This document shows positions 31,693 through 43,680 of a stretch of DNA of 45,201 bases, in pieces. This DNA is from Terriglobia bacterium (GTDB taxonomy: Bacteria > Acidobacteriota > Terriglobia > Acidiferrales > UBA7541). The stretch lies in NCBI GenBank assembly GCA_020072765.1, contig JAIQGD010000044.1:1-45201 (forward strand). Direction: 5' to 3'. The notes under the pieces were generated by a model, which was not told the DNA's origin, did no database searches, and was given only the letters and a program-made list of their open reading frames with translations. Each line of letters begins with the position of its first letter. The first letter of the stretch is position 1. The translations under genes and the position numbers were made by a program.

Positions 31693-32475
31693 GTGCCAGA
31701 GTCGGAAACACAGAAGAATCTGAATCGGCCTGCGGTGAGAATCCTGCCCTTGGCGGGACTTCCCGAGGTCGCGTCGGGCGACGATCTCGGCGCGCTGATC
31801 ATGCAAGCCGCCCGCAAGCAGGGCGTTGGGTGCGCCGCGGGCGATGTCTTTGTCGTCGCGCAGAAGATTGTGTCCAAGGCCGAGGGAAGGAGCGTTCGTC
31901 TTGATTCGGTCGAACCTTCCGAGCGAGCGCGGCGCTGGGCCGCCGAATTTCAGAAAGATCCGCGGGTGATCGAGCTGGTGTTGCGCGAATCGAGCGGCAT
32001 CGTGCGGATGGAGCGCGGCGTGATTGTCGCCCGCACGCGCCACGGTTTCGTCTGCGCCAACGCCGGCGTCGATGTGTCCAATACGCGCGAGGGAACCGCC
32101 CTGTTGTTGCCGGAGGATCCCGACGGCTCCGCGCGCAAGCTTCAGGAGCAGCTCGCGCGGGCGTTCGGCTGCCACGTGGGCGTCATCGTCTCCGACACGT
32201 TTGGGCGGCCCTGGCGGGAAGGCCTCGTCAACGTGGCCCTGGGCGTGGCCGGGATGTCGCCGCTCGCCGATTATCGCGGCCAGCGCGATGCGCACGGAAG
32301 AGTGATGCAGGCGACGATCATCGCCGTGGCCGATGAGCTCGCCGCCGCGGCCGGCCTCGTGATGGGCAAGCTCGAGCGCATGCCCGTGGTGATTGTCCAC
32401 GGCGTCGCCCTGGAAAAGGGCACGGGGAGCGGACGCGACCTCATCCGGCCCGCGGAACGGGATCTATTTCGATGA
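31693..32475 (+). CDS. cofE: Coenzyme F420-0:L-glutamate ligase (CofE)
   Basis: Adds gamma-linked glutamates to F420-0 using GTP. The 260-aa sequence has the family blocks GDVFVVAQKIVSKAEGR, VLRESSGIVRMERGVIVARTRHGFVCANAGVDVSN, LLPEDPDGSARKL and VIVSDTFGRPWREGLVNVALGVAG, the last two forming the metal/GTP site. The GTG at 31693 is the only suitable start. It is a stand-alone CofE without the FbiB nitroreductase-like domain. No other F420 gene is in the window. The selenoprotein gene follows after 74 bp in the same direction and may share its transcript. Confidence 0.92.
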   Translation: MPESETQKNLNRPAVRILPLAGLPEVASGDDLGALIMQAARKQGVGCAAGDVFVVAQKIVSKAEGRSVRLDSVEPSERARRWAAEFQKDPRVIELVLRESSGIVRMERGVIVARTRHGFVCANAGVDVSNTREGTALLLPEDPDGSARKLQEQLARAFGCHVGVIVSDTFGRPWREGLVNVALGVAGMSPLADYRGQRDAHGRVMQATIIAVADELAAAAGLVMGKLERMPVVIVHGVALEKGTGSGRDLIRPAERDLFR

Positions 32476-32549
32476 GCTCCATTCTCTCATCCGTGCTATT
32501 TTGAGTGGCGCGCATCTCGCGGGGTGTGGTGACATCAGGAGCGGACACG

Positions 32550-34343
32550 ATGAGTGACGGAAAAAATCTCCCGCAGGAATCCGTGGTTTCCCTCTCCGTC
32601 CTTCGCGCGTCGGGCGCGGTGACGCTGGAGGCGCTCAACCCGCGCGGCGAGATTCCTCCTCCGCCGACCGTGGGAATCAGGCCGCGCGTGCAGGACCTGG
32701 CCGGGAAGAAGATCGGGCTGTGCGACAACGGCAAATTCGGCGCCCACCATTTTCTGGAAGCCTTGGAAACCATGCTGAAGCAGCGCTACCCGGCCGCCAC
32801 GATTCTCCGGCTTCCCAAGCCTGCGGCGCAAACCATCACGTTGACCGAAGGCTGGTACCCGGAAGTGGCCGCGCAGGTCGATACCTTCGTTTTTGCCACC
32901 GGGGATTGAGGGTCCTGCACGTGGTGGGGTTCCCACGACACGATTGAAATCGAAAAAGCAGGCATACCGGGCGTCTACGTCACCATCTCCGAATTCCTGG
33001 GCGACGCGAGATCCGCGGCCGCCGATCGGGGCATGCCGGGGCTGCGCATCGTGGCCCTGCCGGCCGAGCAATACTACAAGGCACGCCCCAGCCTGAGCGA
33101 GATGCAGCCCCTCGCCGCGGGTGCGTTCCCCCAGATTGTCGATCATCTACTGCGCCCCTTGACCGCGGAAGAAGCGGCGCCTCGGCAAATTCAGCGCGAG
33201 CCGCAGCGGGAGGCCATCCGCGTCGCTGGCGCCGATTACAACGACGCGGCCGAGCAGCTCAACCAGTTGTTTCTGGAAAATCTGTGGGCCGATGGACTGC
33301 CGGTTGTGCCGCCCACCGAACGCGCCGTGAAGTGGATGCTGTCCGGAACCACGCGTGCGCCCGGCGAAATCATCGGGCAGGTGGCTCCCAAGGGCGGCAC
33401 GGCGACGGTCGAAAAGATCGCCATCAATGCCGTGATGGCGGGGGCCCGGCCCGAGCATTTGCCGGTGATCCTCGCGGCCATGGAAGGCTTCACGGATCCG
33501 AACTTCGACCTCACGCACATGCAGGCTTCCACCGGCTCGTTCACGCCCGTGGTGATCGTCAACGGGCCGATCGCCCAGGAGTTGAAGTTCAATTCCGGGA
33601 TTGGGCTGCTGGGCCACGGATGGCGCGCCAACAGCACCGTCGGCCGCGCCCTGCGCCTATGCCTGCTCAACTTGGGCCAGACCTGGCCGGCCATCAACGA
33701 CATGTCGCTGACCGGCCGCCTGGAGTCCTACACGTTTTACACCTTCGCCGAAAACCAGGAGGCCAGCCCGTGGGAACCCTGCCATGTGAGCCTCGGCTTC
33801 CGGCCTGAAGACAGCACAGTGACCGTGGCGACCACCGGGAACCCCATGATGTTCGGAGGGGGCGCCGTCACCGCGTGGTCCGGGCAGGGAATTCTCGACA
33901 GCATGGTGGCCCGAATCAGCAGTGTGGGATTTAGCTGGTTTCATTCCCAAACCTACATCCTCGTGCTGCACCCGGATTGTGCCGTCGAGTTGGCCAAGCT
34001 CGGCTACACGCGCAAGAGTTTGCAGGAATGGCTCTACGAACATGCGCGCATACCCTACGAGATGCTGGCTTCGGCCACCGTCGGGTTTTCGCATGCCGCC
34101 GTGATCGACTTCACCCGCCAGACCATCGCCGACGGCCGGATTCGTCCTGAGCACGCCGCAACGTTTCGCGAGGCTCTGAAGCCGGGAGGAAGGATTCCGG
34201 CGGTCCAAGGCCCCGAGGATTTCCACATCTTCGTCGCCGGTGGCTCTCCCGGCTACGACTTGCTCTTCAGCTATCCGGGACCCAACCAGGCCCACCAGAC
34301 CAAGCGGATCGCCGGCGCCACACTCACCCACGCCGGGCGCTAG
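32550..34343 (+). CDS. UGSC-family selenoprotein, read through an in-frame UGA
   Basis: One 597-residue protein if the TGA at 32907-32909 is read as selenocysteine (residue 120). Before it the frame reads VDTFVFATGD, and after it GSCTWWGSHDTIEIEKAGIPGVYVTISEF, so the active-site motif is U-G-S-C, the signature for which the family is named. The frame continues without a shift to 34343. Residues about 1-215 form the UGSC domain (KIGLCDNGKFG near residue 55). The remaining roughly 380 residues, starting DAAEQLNQLFLENLWADGLPVVPPTE, form a second domain I do not recognise. The ATG at 32550 has AGGAG upstream. Function unknown; a thiol/selenol redox role is inference. Confidence 0.85.
32907..32942 (+). 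promoter_or_regulatory. Selenocysteine UGA with SECIS-like hairpin
   Basis: Directly after the UGA the mRNA can fold: CGUG (32920-32923) with CACG (32939-32942), a two-base GA bulge, then GUGGG (32924-32928) with CCCAC (32932-32936) closing a GUU loop. The loop begins 20 nt after the UGA, within the distance used by bacterial SECIS elements. An alternative fold exposes GGUUC, similar to the GGUC loop of known elements. Confidence 0.65.
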
Positions 34344-34481
34344 TGTCCTGAGTCGTAAGTTCATTGGGTGGTTCTTAGGAGGCCGGGGCTTTAGCCCCGG
34401 CGTTAAGGTATTTGTTTTCCTGGGGCTTTAGCCCCTGAAGCTCCCTTTGATTATGCAAGGCACTTCTGATTCAGGACACTA
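34341..34481. mobile_element. MITE (IS630/mariner type, TA target) between convergent genes
   Basis: Ends are TA-GTGTCCTGAGTC at the left and GATTCAGGACAC-TA at the right: a 12-bp inverted repeat with one mismatch, extending to about 16 of 20. The 137-bp body has two exact copies of the palindrome GGGGCTTTAGCCCC (34385-34398, 34422-34435). TA flanks both ends as a target duplication. No transposase inside. The left TA plus the first G makes the TAG stop of the selenoprotein; the right CTA is the TAG stop of the cytochrome gene on the other strand. Confidence 0.8.
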
Positions 34482-36050
34482 GCTGCCCGCGCCGCTGTGG
34501 CAGGTTGTGCACGGCGTTCCCGCCAGGGCGCTGAAATCGACAGGATGTTTGAACGGTTCGCTATGCCCGGCGTTTTTCGTTGGGCGGGCGGAGGCGGCAT
34601 TCAAAAAGGAATGGCAAGTCGTGCAGTCATTCGATAGGACGCGGCCGTCCGCGCTGACGTGCTGGCCGTCGTGGCACCGGAAACAGCCCGGATAGTACAG
34701 ATGCCCGATATTGTCGGGATGCGTTCGCCAATCGGCGTTCATGCCGGGGAAAATGTTGTTCACATAGATGGCCTGAGTCGTGGCAATGGCCTGCTTGATC
34801 TGCGCTTGCTTCTCGGCATACGCCTTGGCGTAGCTGCCGTGGTAAAAGCCGTCCAAGCCCGTGGCGATTCCTTCTGCCGCGGCCTCGTTGGAGGAATAGG
34901 GGCCGGCCAGCACCTTCACCGCCTGCTGCTTGAGGAAAGGGAGCGAAGGATCCAATTTGCCTGCCGCAAAGGCCTCGTCCACGGCCTGGTCGGGCGGCCG
35001 GAACCGGTGCGACGGCCGGCTGTGGCACGTCACGCACTCCACCAACTGCCTGGGCAGGGCGGCGATCTGCTGGGGGGTGAGCGCGCCATCCTTGGCGACG
35101 TATTCGGTGACCCGGCCGTCCTCGGTCTCCATTCTCACCCAGGGAATCGTCTGCTGCTGCTTGTCGGTGGCAACAAACCAGACCTTATTGGAAATAGCCA
35201 TGTGCCAGTGAATGCCGGTGGCCCGGCCGTGCTCGGCGCTGCCTCCGCCGATGTCAATCAACATGGGAATCTGCGTCGGCGTGTTCTTCTCATCCGCGGC
35301 GAAATGCGTGAACACCTTGAACTGCGCGCCGTAAAACTTCTCCGGCCAGTGGCAGCGTTCGCATCCCTCCCGCACCGGGCGCAGCGCCCGGATGGGCGTC
35401 GTGATCGGCCTGGGAAACGTGGTCGATAGAACCGCGTAGACCTGGTATAGGCCGGAAAACTTCGAGCGCACGTACCACGAGGCTCCCGGCCCCACATGGC
35501 ACGCCACGCACGGCACGCGCGCATGGGGCGAGTCCTTGTAGGCGATGAATTCCGGCTTCATCGGTGTGTGGCAGAGCTGGCCGCAGAACGTCACCGAATC
35601 GGTGAAATGATAGGCCTGATAGGTGGCCACGATGGTCAGAACGAGGAAAAAACTGGACATGCCGGCCACGACGAACAGTCCGCGCCGCGCGGAGCTCAGG
35701 TTGAGGTCGATCCGTGGGTAGGTGGGAACTTCTCCGGGAGCCAGCTTGCGCCGCCGGCGACGCTCCCAGAGCATCCCGACGGGCACCAGGATCAAACCGA
35801 GCAGGGCAATCGCCGGGAAGAGGATGTAAACCAGCAGCCCAAAGTACGGGTTCGGTTCCACCCCCAGCAGCGTGACCAGCAGGGCAAACAGCGTGTAGGC
35901 CAGCGCCAGCGCGATGAAGACCAGGCCGGCCAAACTCACCCAGTTGCGCAGCAGGCTCGGCGCCCGCGGGCCTGCTGGTTCGTAACCAGGAACCGAGCGC
36001 GGACCTTCGGTATCGGGCGCCTTGGGCTCCTCATCATTCGGGGCGGTCAT
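34479..36050 (-). CDS. Membrane-anchored heptahaem cytochrome c (NapC/NirT-related N terminus)
   Basis: A 523-aa protein with two N-terminal membrane helices (about 38-60 and 68-92), a basic loop, a third helix (GLFVVAGMSSFFLVLTIVATY), then a large extracytoplasmic haem domain. Haem motifs in order: CGQLCH (a CX3CH site, followed by TPM as in NapC/NrfH), CVACH, CERCH, CVTCH, CFRCH, CTTCH and CTTCH. It would carry electrons between the quinone pool and periplasmic partners. GGAGG lies eight bases before the ATG. It follows the monohaem cytochrome gene by 54 bp and probably shares its transcript. The stop codon now belongs to the MITE end. Confidence 0.9.
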   Translation of the reverse strand: MTAPNDEEPKAPDTEGPRSVPGYEPAGPRAPSLLRNWVSLAGLVFIALALAYTLFALLVTLLGVEPNPYFGLLVYILFPAIALLGLILVPVGMLWERRRRRKLAPGEVPTYPRIDLNLSSARRGLFVVAGMSSFFLVLTIVATYQAYHFTDSVTFCGQLCHTPMKPEFIAYKDSPHARVPCVACHVGPGASWYVRSKFSGLYQVYAVLSTTFPRPITTPIRALRPVREGCERCHWPEKFYGAQFKVFTHFAADEKNTPTQIPMLIDIGGGSAEHGRATGIHWHMAISNKVWFVATDKQQQTIPWVRMETEDGRVTEYVAKDGALTPQQIAALPRQLVECVTCHSRPSHRFRPPDQAVDEAFAAGKLDPSLPFLKQQAVKVLAGPYSSNEAAAEGIATGLDGFYHGSYAKAYAEKQAQIKQAIATTQAIYVNNIFPGMNADWRTHPDNIGHLYYPGCFRCHDGQHVSADGRVLSNDCTTCHSFLNAASARPTKNAGHSEPFKHPVDFSALAGTPCTTCHSGAGS

Positions 36051-36964: not shown

Positions 36965-38086
36965 ATGGGCTCACTGGATCAGCAGACGTTGCCGGCAGCG
37001 CTCAAGGCTCGCGGCGTTTCGCGCCGCCAATTCGTGAAATTCTGCAGCACCATGGTGGCCACGCTGGCGCTGCCTCCTCGCTACCTCGGTGCGGTGGTCA
37101 AGGCCATGGAGAGCGCCCGGCGCCCCGTGCTGGTCTGGCTGGAGTTCCAGGATTGCGCGGGTAACTCCGAATCGATGCTGCGCACCAGCAACCCCACGGT
37201 CACCGAATTCGTGCTCGATCTGCTCTCCTGGGAGTATCACGAAACCATTATGGCGGGTGCGGGCAAGCAGGCCGAAGCCGCCCTGGAACGCGTCGTGCGT
37301 GAGCACAAAGGCGAGTACATCGCCGTGGTCGAGGGCGCCATCCCCACGGCGGACGACGGTGTGTACTGCACGATTGCCGGACGGACGGCCCTGGAAATCG
37401 CCCGCCACGTTTGCAGCAGTGCGGCGGCGAGCATCGCCGTCGGCGCCTGCGCCTGGGACGGCGGGCTGGTGCGTGCGAATCCCAATCCGACCGGCGCGGT
37501 CGGCCTGCAGGAAGCGGTGCCGGGAATCAAGGTGGTGAATCTGGGAGGCTGCCCTCACAATCCCGCCAACACGGCGGCGGTCCTGGTCCACTATCTGACC
37601 TTCCATGAAATGCCGGCGCTCGATCAATACAACCGGCCGCTGTTCGCCTACGGCAACATCATCCACGATCAGTGCGAGCGCCGCGCGCATTACGATGCCG
37701 GCCGCTACGTCGAGGAATGGGGCGACGAAGGCCATCGCAAGGGCTGGTGCCTGTACAAGATGGGCTGCAAGGGCCCGGAGGCCACCTTCAACTGCCCGGT
37801 GGTTCGCTGGAACGACGGCACCAGTTGGCCGGTGAAGTCCGGCCACGGCTGCATCGCCTGCGCCTCTCACCGCTTCTGGGACAACAAATCGCCTTTCTAC
37901 AAGCGCCTGCCGCAGGTGCCGGGCTTCGGGGTGGATGTCACGGCCGAGAAGATTGGATGGGTGGCGCTGGGGGCCATGGCCGGGGCCGCGGCGGCGCAGG
38001 CCATCGGCAGCACCATTCGCAAGAAGGTGCGCCCCCCGGAGGCCAGCGAAGGTCCGACAAAACCATCTTCATCGCCGGAAGCATAG
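36965..38086 (+). CDS. hyaA: [NiFe] hydrogenase small subunit (uptake, group 1 type)
   Basis: A 373-aa iron-sulfur subunit exported by the Tat system (SRRQFVKFC, residues 19-27) and anchored by a C-terminal helix (IGWVALGAMAGAAAAQAIGS). Distal cluster ligands are visible in HDQCERR and GWCLYKMGC, medial ones in FNCPV and GCIACAS. The proximal cluster motif is C64-A-G-N67, where most enzymes have CxxC; the other two Cys are in VGAC and GGCP. The extra cysteines of oxygen-tolerant [4Fe-3S] enzymes are absent. Sequence blocks such as RRAHYDAGRYV and MGCKGPEATFNC resemble HyaA-type proteins. First gene of the operon; hyaB follows after 9 bp. Confidence 0.94.
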   Translation: MGSLDQQTLPAALKARGVSRRQFVKFCSTMVATLALPPRYLGAVVKAMESARRPVLVWLEFQDCAGNSESMLRTSNPTVTEFVLDLLSWEYHETIMAGAGKQAEAALERVVREHKGEYIAVVEGAIPTADDGVYCTIAGRTALEIARHVCSSAAASIAVGACAWDGGLVRANPNPTGAVGLQEAVPGIKVVNLGGCPHNPANTAAVLVHYLTFHEMPALDQYNRPLFAYGNIIHDQCERRAHYDAGRYVEEWGDEGHRKGWCLYKMGCKGPEATFNCPVVRWNDGTSWPVKSGHGCIACASHRFWDNKSPFYKRLPQVPGFGVDVTAEKIGWVALGAMAGAAAAQAIGSTIRKKVRPPEASEGPTKPSSSPEA

Positions 38087-38095
38087 GAGGTTTCG

Positions 38096-39814
38096 ATGGC
38101 GCGCATCGTAGTGGATCCCGTGACACGCATTGAAGGGCATTTGCGGATCGAAGCCCAGGTCGAAGGCGGAGCCATTGCCGACGCCTGGAGCTCCGGCACG
38201 ATGTTTCGCGGCATCGAGTTGATTCTGCGCGGCCGCGACCCGCGCGAAGCGTGGATCTGGGCGCAGCGGATCTGCGGCGTTTGCACCATGGTGCATGCGC
38301 TCACGTCGGTGAATGCGGTCGAGGACGCTCTCGGCATCGAGGTGCCCGACAACGCCCGGTTGGTCCGCAACATCATCGCGGCCACGCAAACCGTGCAGGA
38401 CCACGTGGTCCACTTCTATCATCTCCACGCCCTCGACTGGGTCGATCTGGTCTCCGCGCTCCAGGCGGACCCAGTAAAAACCTCGCAGCTGGCCCAGTCC
38501 ATTTCCGACTGGCCCAAATCGAATCCGAAATATTTCAAGGGGATTCAGGAGCGCGTCAAGGCGCTGGTGGAGAGCCGTCAGTTGAGCCTTTTCGGCGCGG
38601 GCTATTGGGGCCATCCCGCCTATCATTTGCCGCCGGAAGCAAATTTGATGGCGGTGGCGCACTACATCGAGGCGCTGGCGTTCCAGAAGGACTTCATCCG
38701 CATCCACGCCGTGCTCGGCGGCAAAAATCCGCATTTGCAGACGTTCTTGGTCGGCGGCATGGCCACTTCGCTCGATCCCAACGAGCCCGGAGCGACGATC
38801 AACCCGGAACGCATCGATTTTCTGCTCCAGACGGCCAAGTCCGCGCTGGAATTCGTGGATCAAGTGTATATCCCGGACGTTCTCGCCGTGGCGGGCTTCT
38901 ACCGCGACTGGTTCGGGCGCGGCGAGGGACTGGGGAATTTCATGTCCTACGGAGCTTATCCGCAGGGCAGCATCAAGAACCCGTCGCGCTTCTTTCTGCA
39001 GCAGGGAATCATCCTCAACCGCGACCTTTCGAAAGTTTATCCGCTCGATCCGGCGAACATCACCGAGTACGTCACCCACTCCTGGTACGACTACGCCGGC
39101 GGAGATGCCGCGGCCAAGCATCCCTCCCAGGGCGAGACCAGCCCGCGGTATGCCGGGCCCAAGCCGCCGTATGAATTCCTCGATGTGGACAAGAAATATT
39201 CCTGGCTCAAGGCTCCTCGTTATCAGGACAAGCCCATGGAAGTCGGGCCGCTCGCGCGGCTCCTGGTGGCTTATGCCTCGGGACATGAGGAGGTCAAGAG
39301 CCTCGTCAACGGCACGCTGGCGAAACTGAACGCTCCCCCGGCGGCTTTGTTCTCCACGCTCGGCCGCGTCGCGGCGCGGGCGCTCGAAACGCGCCTGCTC
39401 GCCAGCCACCTGGTCGAATGGATTCAGGCCCTCTCGAACAATCTGGCCAGCGGCGACCTGCGGATTCACAACGGCGAGAAATGGGACCCGCGGACTTGGC
39501 CGAGGAGCGCGCGGGGCTTCGGTTTCTTCGAAGCGCCGCGGGGCTCGCTGGGGCACTGGGTGGAGATCGAGGACGCGGCGATCAAGAATTACCAGGCCGT
39601 GGTGCCCTCGACATGGAACGCCGGCCCGCGCGACGGCCACGGCCAGCGCGGCGCCTACGAGGCGGCTCTGTTGAAGACTCCGGTGGCCGATCCGGAGCGC
39701 CCGCTGGAAATCCTGCGCACCATCCATTCGTTTGATCCCTGCCTGGCCTGCGCCGTGCACGTCGTGGACGCGCGCGGGCACACCTACGCCCGGGCGACGG
39801 CTGCGGCGGGCTGA
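38096..39814 (+). CDS. hyaB: [NiFe] hydrogenase large (catalytic) subunit
   Basis: A 572-aa NiFe-site subunit. The N-terminal motif is RIEGH with RICGVC (C60, C63) and the C-terminal motif is DPCLACAVH (C549, C552), giving the four nickel ligands; all are cysteine, none selenocysteine. After H555 come 17 residues that the maturation protease should remove. It has no export signal and travels with the small subunit. The ATG at 38096 has a clear AGGAGG. Size and motifs fit membrane-bound uptake hydrogenases of group 1; the exact subgroup would need a tree. Confidence 0.96.
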   Translation: MARIVVDPVTRIEGHLRIEAQVEGGAIADAWSSGTMFRGIELILRGRDPREAWIWAQRICGVCTMVHALTSVNAVEDALGIEVPDNARLVRNIIAATQTVQDHVVHFYHLHALDWVDLVSALQADPVKTSQLAQSISDWPKSNPKYFKGIQERVKALVESRQLSLFGAGYWGHPAYHLPPEANLMAVAHYIEALAFQKDFIRIHAVLGGKNPHLQTFLVGGMATSLDPNEPGATINPERIDFLLQTAKSALEFVDQVYIPDVLAVAGFYRDWFGRGEGLGNFMSYGAYPQGSIKNPSRFFLQQGIILNRDLSKVYPLDPANITEYVTHSWYDYAGGDAAAKHPSQGETSPRYAGPKPPYEFLDVDKKYSWLKAPRYQDKPMEVGPLARLLVAYASGHEEVKSLVNGTLAKLNAPPAALFSTLGRVAARALETRLLASHLVEWIQALSNNLASGDLRIHNGEKWDPRTWPRSARGFGFFEAPRGSLGHWVEIEDAAIKNYQAVVPSTWNAGPRDGHGQRGAYEAALLKTPVADPERPLEILRTIHSFDPCLACAVHVVDARGHTYARATAAAG

Positions 39815-39828
39815 AACGGAGAGGGAAT

Positions 39829-40626
39829 ATGACGGAAATGCACGGCGGCTCCCGGCAAATATCCGGGCCTTATCAACTTGCCCCGGGCCGCACCCGAATT
39901 TATGTGTGGGAGAAGCCGGTGCGGTTCGCGCACTGGTTGCTGGTGCTCTCGCTGGTCGTCCTCAGCGTGACCGGCTACTACATCTATAACCCCTTCGTCA
40001 TCAGCCGCGGAAGAGCCGCCTATGTGATGGGCACGGCGCGCTTCATTCATTTGGTTGCGGCGTGGGCTTTCATCGCGGCTATTTTGGTCCGCTTCTATTG
40101 GTTCTTCCGGGGCAACCGCTGGGCGCGGATCAACCAGTTTATTCCCACGAGGCGAGAGCGATGGCAGGACGCGGTTGAAACCGTCAAATACTACATGTTC
40201 CGGCGCTGGAACCCCACTCCTCGGATTGGTCACAACGCGCTGGCAGGCGCGACCTATACGCTAATTTTCGGAATCGCGGTGATCGAGATTATCACTGGCC
40301 TGGCGCTTTACAACAATGTGGTGCACAGCAAGTGTTTGGGATTGTTGGTCGGATGGGTTCCGCGGCTGGCGGATATCCAGTGGCTTCGGGAAATCCATTT
40401 CCTGGTGATGTTCGCTCTCTGGTTCTTTTTTATTCACCACATGTACAGCGTGTTGTTGGCCGCCAGTGAAGAGAAGAACGGTTGTGTCGAAGGCATGGTC
40501 AGCGGCTATAAGTTTGTCACCCAAGCAGACCTGCAAAGAGAATTCGGCACTCGGCCGGGCGGCGAAAAGTCCGAGCCGGTGCGCGCCGTGCGGCAAACTC
40601 CCGCCGCCGGAAAGGTCTCTGGCTGA
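39829..40626 (+). CDS. hyaC: Ni/Fe-hydrogenase b-type cytochrome subunit
   Basis: A 265-aa membrane cytochrome b linking the hydrogenase to the quinone pool. Four helices are visible: HWLLVLSLVVLSVTGYYIY, FIHLVAAWAFIAAILVRFYWF, ATYTLIFGIAVIEIITGLALY and IHFLVMFALWFFFIHHMYSVLL. Histidines in the first, second and fourth helices are candidate haem ligands. Residues after about 220 form a cytoplasmic tail. It begins 14 bp after hyaB. Confidence 0.94.
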   Translation: MTEMHGGSRQISGPYQLAPGRTRIYVWEKPVRFAHWLLVLSLVVLSVTGYYIYNPFVISRGRAAYVMGTARFIHLVAAWAFIAAILVRFYWFFRGNRWARINQFIPTRRERWQDAVETVKYYMFRRWNPTPRIGHNALAGATYTLIFGIAVIEIITGLALYNNVVHSKCLGLLVGWVPRLADIQWLREIHFLVMFALWFFFIHHMYSVLLAASEEKNGCVEGMVSGYKFVTQADLQREFGTRPGGEKSEPVRAVRQTPAAGKVSG

Positions 40627-40636
40627 AGGCGTGCGC

Positions 40637-41191
40637 ATGCCGATACCGCAAGCGTCCCAAATCGTGGTGCTGGGCCTGGGCAACACCATCCTTTCCGACG
40701 ATGGCGCCGGCATCCGCGCCGTGGAAGCGCTGCGGCGCGATCCGAGGACGCCTCCGGATGTGGAGCTGATCGACGGCGGGACGAAGGGTCTCGAGTTGGC
40801 CTGCTTCGCCTCCGATGCTTCGAAGTTGCTGCTGCTCGACGCGGTGGACGTGGGCGAGGCTCCGGGAATGGTGGTTCGCATCCGTGGCGCCGACTTGCTG
40901 GGCTTGCCGGCGGGAAAGACCGTCCACGAATTGGGCCTGGCCGACCTGCTGGCCACGTTGCATCTGGTGGCCGAGCAACCTATCGAGATTGTGCTGCTGG
41001 GCGTCCAGCCGGCCGCCACCGCGTTGGGCACGGCGCTGTCCCCCGCGGTGGAAGCGGCCATCGAGGTGCTGGTCGAGGAAGCGCTTGCGCAACTGGTTCG
41101 GTGGACGCAGTCACCCGCGGCAGTTTTCGAAGCCGCGGCCCCCGGCACTGCCGCGCAGTCTTCTTCGAGAGTTTGTATGAGACCTGTCTGA
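40637..41191 (+). CDS. hyaD: Hydrogenase maturation endopeptidase (HyaD/HybD family)
   Basis: Cleaves the C-terminal peptide of the large subunit after nickel insertion. The 184-aa product shows VVLGLGNTILSDDGAGIRAVEAL at the start (with the nickel-sensing acidic residue in SDDG), LIDGGTKGLEL and LLLLDAVDVGEAPG in the middle. Start is ATG 40637 or GTG 40631; GAAGG precedes both. The frame is open upstream inside hyaC but carries nothing of the family. The C-terminal 25 residues are poorly conserved. Confidence 0.9.
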   Translation: MPIPQASQIVVLGLGNTILSDDGAGIRAVEALRRDPRTPPDVELIDGGTKGLELACFASDASKLLLLDAVDVGEAPGMVVRIRGADLLGLPAGKTVHELGLADLLATLHLVAEQPIEIVLLGVQPAATALGTALSPAVEAAIEVLVEEALAQLVRWTQSPAAVFEAAAPGTAAQSSSRVCMRPV

Positions 41192-41207
41192 GGCAAGGAG
41201 AGCGCCC

Positions 41208-41513
41208 GTGTGCCTGGCGATACCCGGAAAGCTTTTGACGGCGGAAGAACACAACGGCGTTCGGATCGGCCGCGTGCAGTTCGGCGGCATCACGCGCGAG
41301 GCGTGTCTGGATTTTCTGCCCGAGGCGTCGGTGGGCGATTACGTCATCGTCCACGTGGGCTTCGCCCTCAGCCGCGTGGACCGCGAGGAGGCGGAGCGGA
41401 GTTACGCCCTGCTGGAATCGATGGGCCTGCTGGAGGGCGAGCTGCAATCCGACCTGCACGATTCGGAATCCAGCCCGGGCGGTCGCGCCGGCGCCGGCGG
41501 GAGGCCGTTGTGA
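41208..41513 (+). CDS. hypC: Hydrogenase assembly chaperone HypC
   Basis: A 101-aa chaperone carrying the Fe(CN)2CO unit between HypD and the large subunit. It begins with GTG, so the product reads [10 protein letters not shown]; the essential Cys is residue 2. The strands [41 protein letters not shown] are typical. The tail (from about 80) is Gly/Ala-rich. Its TGA overlaps the GTG of hypD. Confidence 0.94.
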
Positions 41514-42619
41514 AATACCTCGACGAATATCGCGATGAGCGCATCGCGCGCAATCTGGCGGCGGAAATCGGCCGGCGCGCCCGCCGTCCCTGGACGCTGA
41601 TGGAGATTTGCGGCGGCCAGACGCACACGCTGATGCGGTTTGGCATCGACGAAGTCCTGCCGCCGGGAATCGAAATGGTGCACGGCCCGGGATGCCCGGT
41701 ATGCGTGACGTCGCTGGAGACCATCGACAAGGCCATTGCCATTGCCTCGCGGCCCGCCGCCATCCTGGTGTCCTACGGCGACATGCTGCGCGTGCCCGGT
41801 TCGCGCACCGACTTGTTTCACGTCAAGGCCAGCGGCGGAGACGTCCGCGTGGTCTATTCGCCGGTAGAGGCCCTGAAAGTTGCGCGCGCACACCCGAATC
41901 GGCCCGTGGTCTTCTTCGCCGTGGGATTTGAAACCACCGCCCCGGCCAACGCCATGGCCATCTGGCAGGCGAAGCGCGAGGGCTTGGCGAATTTCTCGAT
42001 GCTCGCCTCCCACGTGCTGGTGCCGCCGGCGATCCGCGCGCTGCTCAGCTCTCCCCACAACCGCGTGCAGGGATTTATCGGGCCGGGCCACGTCTGCACG
42101 GTGATGGGTTGCCGCGAATACGAACAACTCGCGCGCGAATTCCGCGTCCCCATCGTCGTGGGCGGCTTCGAGCCCATGGACCTTCTGGAGGCGATTCTCA
42201 TGCTGGTGACCCAGCTCGAGCAAGGGCGCGCCGAGGTCGAAAATCAGTACGTGCGCTCGGTCACCTACGAGGGAAACCGGCTCGCCCAGAAGGTTCTGGG
42301 CGAGGTGTTCGAGGTCTGCGACCGCAAGTGGCGCGGAATCGGCCAAATTCCGGCCAGTGGCCTAAGCATCCGGCGGGAATATGCCGATTTTGATGCTGAC
42401 ACCATCTTCGACTTCGAAGGATTTACCGTGCCCGAACCGGCCGAGTGCATCAGCGCCCTGGTGCTGCAAGGGCGGAAAAAACCGACCGACTGCCCGGTTT
42501 TTGCGGCGCGCTGCACGCCGGAGCATCCCCTGGGCGCGCCCATGGTTTCCTCCGAGGGAGCTTGCGCGGCCTACTACCAGTACCGGCGGCACATGGTGGC
42601 CGGGGCGGGAGCAAACTGA
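41510..42619 (+). CDS. hypD: Hydrogenase expression/formation protein HypD
   Basis: A 369-aa scaffold protein with a [4Fe-4S] cluster on which the Fe(CN)2CO group is built. Conserved blocks: [58 protein letters not shown], and C-terminal cysteines in [29 protein letters not shown]. The GTG at 41510 overlaps the hypC stop, and the conserved region begins only a few residues later; the frame upstream is the shadow of hypC. Its stop overlaps the ATG of hypE. Confidence 0.95.
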
Positions 42620-43680
42620 TGGCGCCGGCGGCGAAAATGCAGCCTGGGCTGGCGTGCCCGGTTCCGATTCCGGCGCGGGACTTCGTGGTCTTGGGACACG
42701 GCAGCGGCGGCCGCATGAGCGCCGACCTGCTGCGGAACCTGATTCTGCCGGCCCTGCAGAATCCCGTGCTGGCGCAGCTCAACGATCAAGCCGTGGTCGA
42801 AGTGAAGGGCAGCCGCCTGGCGTTTACCACGGATTCCTTCGTGGTCAAGCCGCTGTTCTTCCCGGGCGGCGATATCGGATCGCTGGCGGTCAATGGCACG
42901 GTCAACGATCTGGCCATGGGTGGCGCGGTGCCGCTGTTTCTGAGCCTGGCGTTCATCCTGGAGGAAGGGCTCCCCATGGAAGTGCTGCGCCGCGTCGTCG
43001 AATCGATTCAGCGGGCGGCGGCGCAGGCCGGCGTGGTGGTCGTAACCGGCGACACCAAGGTGGTGGAGAAGGGCAGCGGCGATGGGCTGTTCGTCAACAC
43101 CTCCGGCATTGGACTGGTTCCCGCCGATGTGCGGCTGTCCGCCGATCAGGCGCGCCCCGGCGATCGCGTGCTGCTCAGCGGTTCGATCGGCGACCACGGC
43201 ATCACCATTCTTTCGCAGCGGGAAGGGCTGGCGTTTGACACCGGCCTGCAGAGCGACACGGCGGCGTTGCACACCCTGGTCGCGGACATGCTCGGCGCGA
43301 GCCAGGCGATCCGCTGCCTGCGCGATCCCACGCGCGGCGGATTATCCAGCGCGCTCAATGAGATTGCGGAGCGCTCCGGCGTGGGGATCGAGCTGCAGGA
43401 GAGCGCGATTCCGGTGCGCGAAGAGGTGCAGGGTGCCTGCGAGATGCTGGGGCTCGATCCGCTGTACGTGGCCAACGAGGGCAAGCTGATCGCCATCGTG
43501 GATCCCGCCGCCGCCGAGCCGCTGCTCGACGCCATGCGGCGCCATCCGCTGGGCCGCGAGGCGCGCATGATTGGCACGGTCGGCGGCGCTCGCCCCGGGA
43601 TGGTCACGATGCGCACGCGGCTGGGAACGTCGCGCATTGTGGACCTTCTGGCGGGAGACCAGTTGCCGCGCATTTGTTAG
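42619..43680 (+). CDS. hypE: Hydrogenase expression/formation protein HypE
   Basis: A 353-aa ATP-dependent dehydratase of the AIR-synthase/PurM fold that makes the thiocyanate donor on its C-terminal cysteine. Visible are LGHGSGGRMSADL, FTTDSFVVKPLFFPGGDIGSLAVNGTVNDLAMGGA, VVTGDTKVVEKG, CLRDPTRGGLSSALNEIA and the terminal PRIC, with the acceptor C353 as last residue. The ATG at 42619 shares bases with the hypD stop. Confidence 0.95.
   Translation: MAPAAKMQPGLACPVPIPARDFVVLGHGSGGRMSADLLRNLILPALQNPVLAQLNDQAVVEVKGSRLAFTTDSFVVKPLFFPGGDIGSLAVNGTVNDLAMGGAVPLFLSLAFILEEGLPMEVLRRVVESIQRAAAQAGVVVVTGDTKVVEKGSGDGLFVNTSGIGLVPADVRLSADQARPGDRVLLSGSIGDHGITILSQREGLAFDTGLQSDTAALHTLVADMLGASQAIRCLRDPTRGGLSSALNEIAERSGVGIELQESAIPVREEVQGACEMLGLDPLYVANEGKLIAIVDPAAAEPLLDAMRRHPLGREARMIGTVGGARPGMVTMRTRLGTSRIVDLLAGDQLPRIC

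Follow-up and report, generated by a model that had tools for sequence, protein, structure and literature searches.

A two-domain UGSC selenoprotein gene from a Terriglobia bacterium and the multiplication of its family into many selenocysteine enzymes, most of them apparently exported

UGSC proteins are named among the commonest selenoprotein families in the accessible passages of two papers on marine surveys (PMC2398784; PMC9402790), and the accessible text of a 2026 review describes the functions of these selenoprotein families as largely uncharacterised (PMC13188914). In 2008, Zhang and Gladyshev described, from the Global Ocean Sampling survey, a fusion of UGSC with a domain called 'Unknown_1' (PMC2398784), and the fusion architecture itself is thus not new; the same paper, in the passages accessible, considered a Trx-like fold likely for UGSC proteins. 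The largest bacterial selenoproteome quoted in 2016 comprised at least 39 genes, all families together (PMC5029168, accessible part).

Glycine reductase and D-proline reductase, with their selenoprotein subunits GrdB and PrdB (PF07355 and TIGR04483, the latter by name in PMC9312934), are the other described systems with which this locus was compared. GrdB and PrdB act with a separate partner polypeptide. In D-proline reductase, the selenolate has been proposed to attack a carbon, after which a neighbouring cysteine releases the product and a selenenylsulfide is formed.

The fusion gene and its two domains

The window, that is, the whole stretch of 45,201 nucleotides analysed here (contig C78; the genome measures 3.78 Mb and is 96.6% complete), contains a gene that, judging from its sequence, almost certainly encodes one selenoprotein. 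Its features are the following.

32537 to 32541, plus strand: AGGAG, a probable ribosome-binding site 8 nt before ATG 32550 (from the sequence)
32550 to 34343, plus strand: gene for a UGSC/partner-domain fusion selenoprotein, 597 residues with UGA read as Sec (from the frame, Pfam UGSC and full-length relatives)
32634 to 33149, plus strand: UGSC domain PF24696, residues 29-200 (Pfam); Rossmann-like in the model, with Sec at a helix start after a strand
32907 to 32909, plus strand: in-frame UGA, Sec120 (from frame translation and UGA or Cys in relatives)
32916 to 32918, plus strand: Cys123, the likely resolving partner of Sec120 in a UxxC motif (residue conservation)
32921 to 32939, plus strand: bacterial SECIS-like hairpin with loop GUU at 32929-32931 (comparative hairpin test)
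33222 to 34340, plus strand: partner domain, residues 225-597 (outside any Pfam family; polar residues conserved, but no Cys)

A frame opening at ATG 32550, meeting TGA at 32907 and ending at 34343 had been described in the sequence-only reading, and translation confirmed both the coordinates and the description. The 597-residue frame closes at TAG 34341-34343 and holds a single UGA, at codon 120 (TGA read as Sec), in the context FATGD-U-GSC-TWWG. As had also been foreseen, ordinary gene calling splits the gene, since table 11 gives instead two ORFs, one at 32505-32909, which starts with GTG and encodes 134 aa, and one of 436 aa at 33033-34343. Full-length relatives of the fusion protein from the same genus share 62-72% identity with it. 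Cys123 is invariant in one alignment (A1, 22 rows) and conserved at 91% in a second (A4, 58 rows), for which 66 fused sequences were listed and 57 plus the window protein were used, four with extra in-frame UGAs and four others being excluded.

Membership of the UGSC family, suggested earlier from the motif, was borne out by Pfam, residues 29-200 matching PF24696 with 113.7 bits against a gathering threshold of 25, and the same profile gave zero matches in 14 control genomes. The NCBIfam equivalog NF041046, 'UGSC family (seleno)protein', scored 92.4 bits, below its cut-off of 125, and the protein is therefore filed only in the wider Pfam family and not as an equivalog. When the Sec site was compared by hhalign with GrdB and PrdB, using GrdB and PrdB-like profile sequences taken from other genomes, the probabilities were 89.8 (target alignment of 2 rows) and 87.6 (target alignment of 3 rows), respectively. 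A weak GrdB-family match in NCBIfam covered the same Sec-site residues (E 0.0036), and the window protein fell far under the cut-offs of TIGR01917 (16.3 of 602 bits) and TIGR01918 (13.0 of 65 bits). These profile comparisons are suggestive, not decisive, of homology between the Sec site and that of GrdB/PrdB.

The AlphaFold2 models reached a pLDDT of 90.1 and a pTM of 0.91 for the fusion, and 92.7 and 0.93 for the partner domain. The Sec domain is predicted to consist of alternating strands and helices in a Rossmann-like arrangement, Sec120 lying between strand 112-118 and helix 121-136. Its structural matches were mostly of the Rossmann, flavodoxin or lumazine-synthase types, the best row of a second look (Z 10.1) being a designed protein, and a search of the sequences of solved structures with the window protein returned none at E up to 10.

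The extra domain of about 380 residues noted earlier is indeed present (residues 225-597), but it is not peculiar to the window protein, as UGSC is usually accompanied by it, either in the same chain or as the product of an adjacent gene. Searched against Pfam, these residues matched no family at a meaningful level. D248, T256, T286, N293, N361, R366 and N374 are near-invariant in the partner domain, E401 and W408 are invariant, and no conserved Cys was found in the alignment; the partner-domain alignment (A5) holds 84 of 110 partner domains plus that of the window. A GrdE-like nature was rejected (probability 0.4 against 2 GrdE sequences), and a GrdB-like one was likewise rejected by profile comparison. 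As the partner is unlike GrdE and contains no conserved Cys, the GrdB analogy is limited to the Sec half.

The best Foldseek match of the partner domain (E 1.3e-4) was chain A of a two-subunit fumarate hydratase, which in a second look gave Z 4.9 and an rmsd of 5.1 over 186 aligned residues, below a meaningful level. Cyclic amide hydrolases and MmgE/PrpD types were also among the fold matches, and no relation is claimed to any of them. No clear structural relative of the partner domain was found, and the absence of relatives is not claimed.

A separate partner gene lies beside a stand-alone UGSC gene in Chloroflexota, Pseudomonadota, Rokubacteria, haloarchaea, one same-genus genome and one same-class genome, the adjacent pairs including those of Paracoccus, Natrinema, Variovorax and sister genomes. 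Being fused or adjacent to UGSC, the partner domain appears to be its functional partner, and the fusion one arrangement of a widespread pair. It is very probable that the partner domain holds the substrate and that both domains make up a single enzyme, joined in one chain in this protein and split between neighbouring genes in other genomes.

On plasmid pFER4 of Paracoccus ferrooxidans, the UGSC/partner pair is located between selA and selB, in a stretch (L147) where cysteine desulfurase, DsrE and TusA-like proteins also surround it and which has the look of a mobile island for selenocysteine. Genes of this kind are cut short by standard annotation; the P. ferrooxidans UGSC gene, for example, appears in its record as a short hypothetical protein terminating at the UGA (residue 96).

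The explanation that we favour overall is that of a GrdB/PrdB-like Sec enzyme with a substrate-holding partner domain, which we consider probable. For the UGSC domain itself, a GrdB/PrdB-like nature, with Sec120 at the start of a helix and Cys123 nearby as resolving thiol, seems a little more probable still. By analogy with D-proline reductase, we tentatively put forward substrate attack by the selenolate and release via Cys123 as the most likely chemistry. The partner domain would bind an organic substrate, the selenolate of Sec120 would attack an activated carbon in it, and a leaving group would depart. Cys123 would then free the product by forming a Sec120-Cys123 selenenylsulfide, which a reductant would re-open, and the many paralogues would differ in substrate.

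It is rather unlikely that the selenoprotein is instead a general thiol/selenol redox enzyme with thioredoxin-like, disulfide, peroxide or quinone chemistry. The UxxC resembles a redox motif, a Trx-like fold was called likely for UGSC in the accessible part of the 2008 paper (PMC2398784), and thioredoxin-reductase-like flavoproteins adjoin a few copies; however, the model is Rossmann-like, with matches mostly of the types given above, and the near-invariant polar residues of a 370-residue partner, together with 15-29 paralogues per genome, better fit substrate diversity.

Paralogues, export and gene neighbourhoods

The window gene is one of about 15 in its own genome, among which the only constant motif is UxxC, not UGSC. 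The whole protein had 16 matches there, 15 of them placed as fusion genes with one UGA each at the motif, and PF24696 alone had 14, all with one UGA. The motif variants are UGSC, USTC, UGGC, UDGC, UNGC, UHGC and UPGC. Twelve of the 19 other same-genus genomes have 2-19 matches and seven have none; two of the remaining 41 relatives match, both of the same class, for a total of 15 of 61 genomes. Across the phylum, the family was found in 41 of 396 genomes, the own genome included. A second genus of the phylum had 29, 28, 18 and 19 matches in the four genomes examined, fragments included, and the UGA was present in 21 of 29 rows in one of its genomes (G177) and in 18 of 19 in another (G186).

A signal-like N-terminus, often with a twin arginine, was seen in 12 of the 15 own-genome copies, as judged by eye and with a hydrophobicity window (two of the 12 resting on partial N-termini); the three copies lacking one include that of the window. 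About 15 of the 19 copies of one genome of the second genus also look exported. From these N-termini, most own-genome paralogues would act outside the cytoplasm, and the window copy would be cytoplasmic. In a quick tree, the window clade contained 15 rows, three from the own genome and 12 from sister species (SH-aLRT 100), and the remaining 12 own copies belonged to a second clade, in which copies from 'Acidobacteria bacterium palsa_295' (L137) are intermingled with copies from the genus; from this the organism is probably an acidobacterium. The unexpected feature is this multiplication of a known family into many Sec enzymes, most of which look exported. A literature search through titles, abstract starts and passages, with most subscription papers outside its reach, found no account of UGSC paralogue expansion, export, PQQ linkage or GrdB relation.

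Neighbour frequencies were counted at UGSC loci only, with genes taken as greedy long ORFs, and a false neighbour family of 33 members, consisting of antisense ORFs over fusion genes, was removed by eye. In the own genome, seven of the 15 copies have a PQQ dehydrogenase gene no more than 3 kb away, 0.83 being expected; with contigs taken as blocks, five of 10 are near such a gene (P 0.0002 by random placement). For this count, 24 PQQ genes of the own genome were hand-grouped from 49 match pieces, weak members included. In the window's genus, 30 PQQ dehydrogenase genes occur in 16 of 26 loci, at least one of them counted twice (L056 and L057 overlap). Other recurrent neighbours in these 26 loci are cytochrome c (8 loci), rhodanese (5) and a protein of about 640 residues without a Pfam match (7 loci, for example L158:6183-8090 and L053:5696-7771). 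A single 24-kb contig of the own genome (C96, loci L056 and L057) carries four UGSC fusion genes and four PQQ dehydrogenases.

The exported paralogues might serve PQQ-dependent alcohol oxidation, processing the dehydrogenase product or passing electrons to cytochrome c. The recurrence of PQQ dehydrogenase, cytochrome c and rhodanese beside the fusions, and the excess over random placement, are in line with such a role. However, in the second genus, with 18-29 matches per genome, PQQ-dehydrogenase matches were absent from two of three genomes and limited to three weak ones in the third (best 28 bits), the 17 loci of one genome had no common neighbour family at the threshold used, and no PQQ dehydrogenase was found among the ten scanned neighbours of the window copy. 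PQQ dehydrogenase as a general partner was rejected on account of the second genus, and we judge the role in PQQ-dependent oxidation improbable.

In other phyla, among the best 80 of 573 loci, solute-binding proteins occurred at 22, MmgE/PrpD at 10 and TPP enzymes at 7. A representative of the solute-binding family had no Pfam match, and three of its plasmid members are annotated as tripartite-tricarboxylate-transporter substrate-binding proteins. Such neighbours point to organic acids being catabolised.

At 4 of 80 and 3 of 10 UGSC loci there is a thioredoxin-reductase-like flavoprotein, all 7 members of which match Pyr_redox_2, and in L066, L076 and L111 it directly adjoins the fusion gene on the same strand, an adjacency that would suit re-reduction of the UxxC pair. 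It is too rare to be a general partner, and none was seen among the scanned neighbours of the window copy. The neighbour in Natrinema is not a flavoprotein of this kind but of the F420/NADP-oxidoreductase or hydroxyacid-dehydrogenase type, and an apparent UGSC-partner-flavoprotein triple fusion in L076 was rejected, since the flavoprotein has its own frame, beginning where the fusion gene ends. Across UGSC loci, no one electron donor recurs constantly.

At the window locus itself, a gene for F420-0:gamma-glutamyl ligase (PF01996, E 8e-76) lies at 31693-32475, 74 bases upstream of the selenoprotein gene. It was dismissed as a functional partner, as no similar gene was found at the two closest orthologues, one of which (L153) is on a contig of only 5.3 kb and is weak in this respect; indeed, none of the window copy's neighbour genes had a similar one found at these two loci. 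Downstream, a multihaem cytochrome c is encoded on the other strand (34479-36050, minus), and 36965-43680 encodes the small and large subunits of a NiFe hydrogenase, cytochrome b, HypD and an AIRS-type (HypE-like) protein.

A broader picture can be sketched, with considerable doubt as to its truth. The family may form a lineage-specific, mainly exported selenoenzyme superfamily built of Sec-nucleophile and substrate-binding modules. Two genera of one phylum would have multiplied it to 15-29 copies per genome, every copy adapted to its own organic substrate, and in the genus of the window the copies would be linked to periplasmic PQQ-dehydrogenase/cytochrome c pathways. If true, catabolism outside the cytoplasm would here be based on selenium, a kind of system that did not turn up in the literature searched. 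Bacteria with 15-29 copies, mostly exported where inspected, make a substrate screen practical.

Decoding of the in-frame UGA

The UGA at 32907 would, with near certainty, be decoded as Sec by means of SelB, tRNA-Sec and the downstream hairpin. A search of the same genome for sel genes had been proposed, and the best matches all exceed the cut-offs: selA with 568 bits (cut-off 268), selB with 373 (242), selD with 371 (125) and tRNA-Sec with 69 (47), a second tRNA scoring 48.

Homologues align through the UGA with either Sec or Cys at the site, as the sequence-only reading had anticipated. In the survey of other genomes, the best 80 of 573 confirmed loci contained 108 UGSC domains, of which 75 share a chain with the partner domain; the aligned Sec site was UGA in 94 of the 108, Cys in five and another residue in nine. 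The CxxC is kept in only two of the five Cys-bearing domains, and together with the nine that have neither Sec nor Cys, this suggests that some relatives manage without Sec/Cys chemistry. Four paralogues in two sister genomes of the window's genus have TGC (Cys), one of the motifs being without the second Cys, and CGSC is encoded on a Variovorax plasmid. At L067, L068, L069 and L102, fusion paralogues were observed in which Leu, Asn, Met, Ser or Ala takes the place of Sec, two or three of them together in each of the first three loci; they are apparently non-redox relatives with the same architecture.

A hairpin had been noted where a bacterial SECIS should be, and it is present at 32921-32939, its GUU loop 19 nt past the UGA. 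The energy of this single hairpin was no better than that of shuffles (z +0.43 for 44 nt, z -1.72 for 64 nt) and was discarded as SECIS evidence; as it was uninformative, a comparative test of copies was used. To be counted, a hairpin needed a stem of 4 pairs or more (6 when its extension is included), a GU among the first three bases of the loop, and a distance of 15-25 nt between UGA and loop; 200 codon-resampled sets served as controls for each group. Of 50 distinct copies, 47 of which are rows from the window's genus and three from same-class genomes, such a hairpin was found in 47 (resampled mean 6.7, maximum 13), and it was found in 71 of 90 copies of other named genomes (resampled mean 10.9, maximum 19), and is thus conserved far above the controls. 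An energy-based version was weaker, 7 of 40 copies beating all 12 resampled controls with 3.1 expected. The stems differ by main clade (GUGGG-GUU-CCCAC versus GACC-GUC-GGUC), the architecture being constant. Rfam matched a single element in the window, a tRNA (tRNA-Lys).

That the UGA is a true stop, whether between two distinct proteins, through decay of the gene or through a fault in the assembly, is extremely improbable: table 11 does give two ORFs and the window hairpin is energetically unremarkable, but one UGA is found in all 14 PF24696 matches of the own genome and in most listed sister-species copies, the conserved domain continues downstream of it in the copies, Cys stands at the site in some relatives, and the SECIS-like hairpin recurs in 47 of 50. 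Sec insertion is strongly supported, as well as sequence alone permits.

Comparison with known selenoproteins

With the UGSC family (PF24696, NF041046), the window protein shares the sequence of the Sec domain, the UxxC motif, a UGA-encoded Sec and a SECIS-like hairpin. It differs in carrying the partner domain in the same chain, and its own-genome paralogues mostly have USTC, UGGC, UDGC, UNGC, UHGC or UPGC in place of UGSC. The UGSC/Unknown_1 fusion, which is known here by its description only, likewise joins UGSC to a conserved domain of unknown function, whereas paralogue expansion, export and PQQ linkage were not found in the accessible passages of that paper (PMC2398784).

With GrdB/PrdB, the likeness consists of a strand, Sec, a helix and a conserved E..GIP segment. 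In contrast, the partner domain of the window protein is unrelated to GrdE by profile comparison. In our reading, the Sec domain of GrdB and PrdB has a third branch, the UGSC domain, whose substrate-binding partner is unrelated to theirs. The UGSC family thereby gains a usual partner, and a Sec site that is likely of the GrdB/PrdB type, not of the thioredoxin type.
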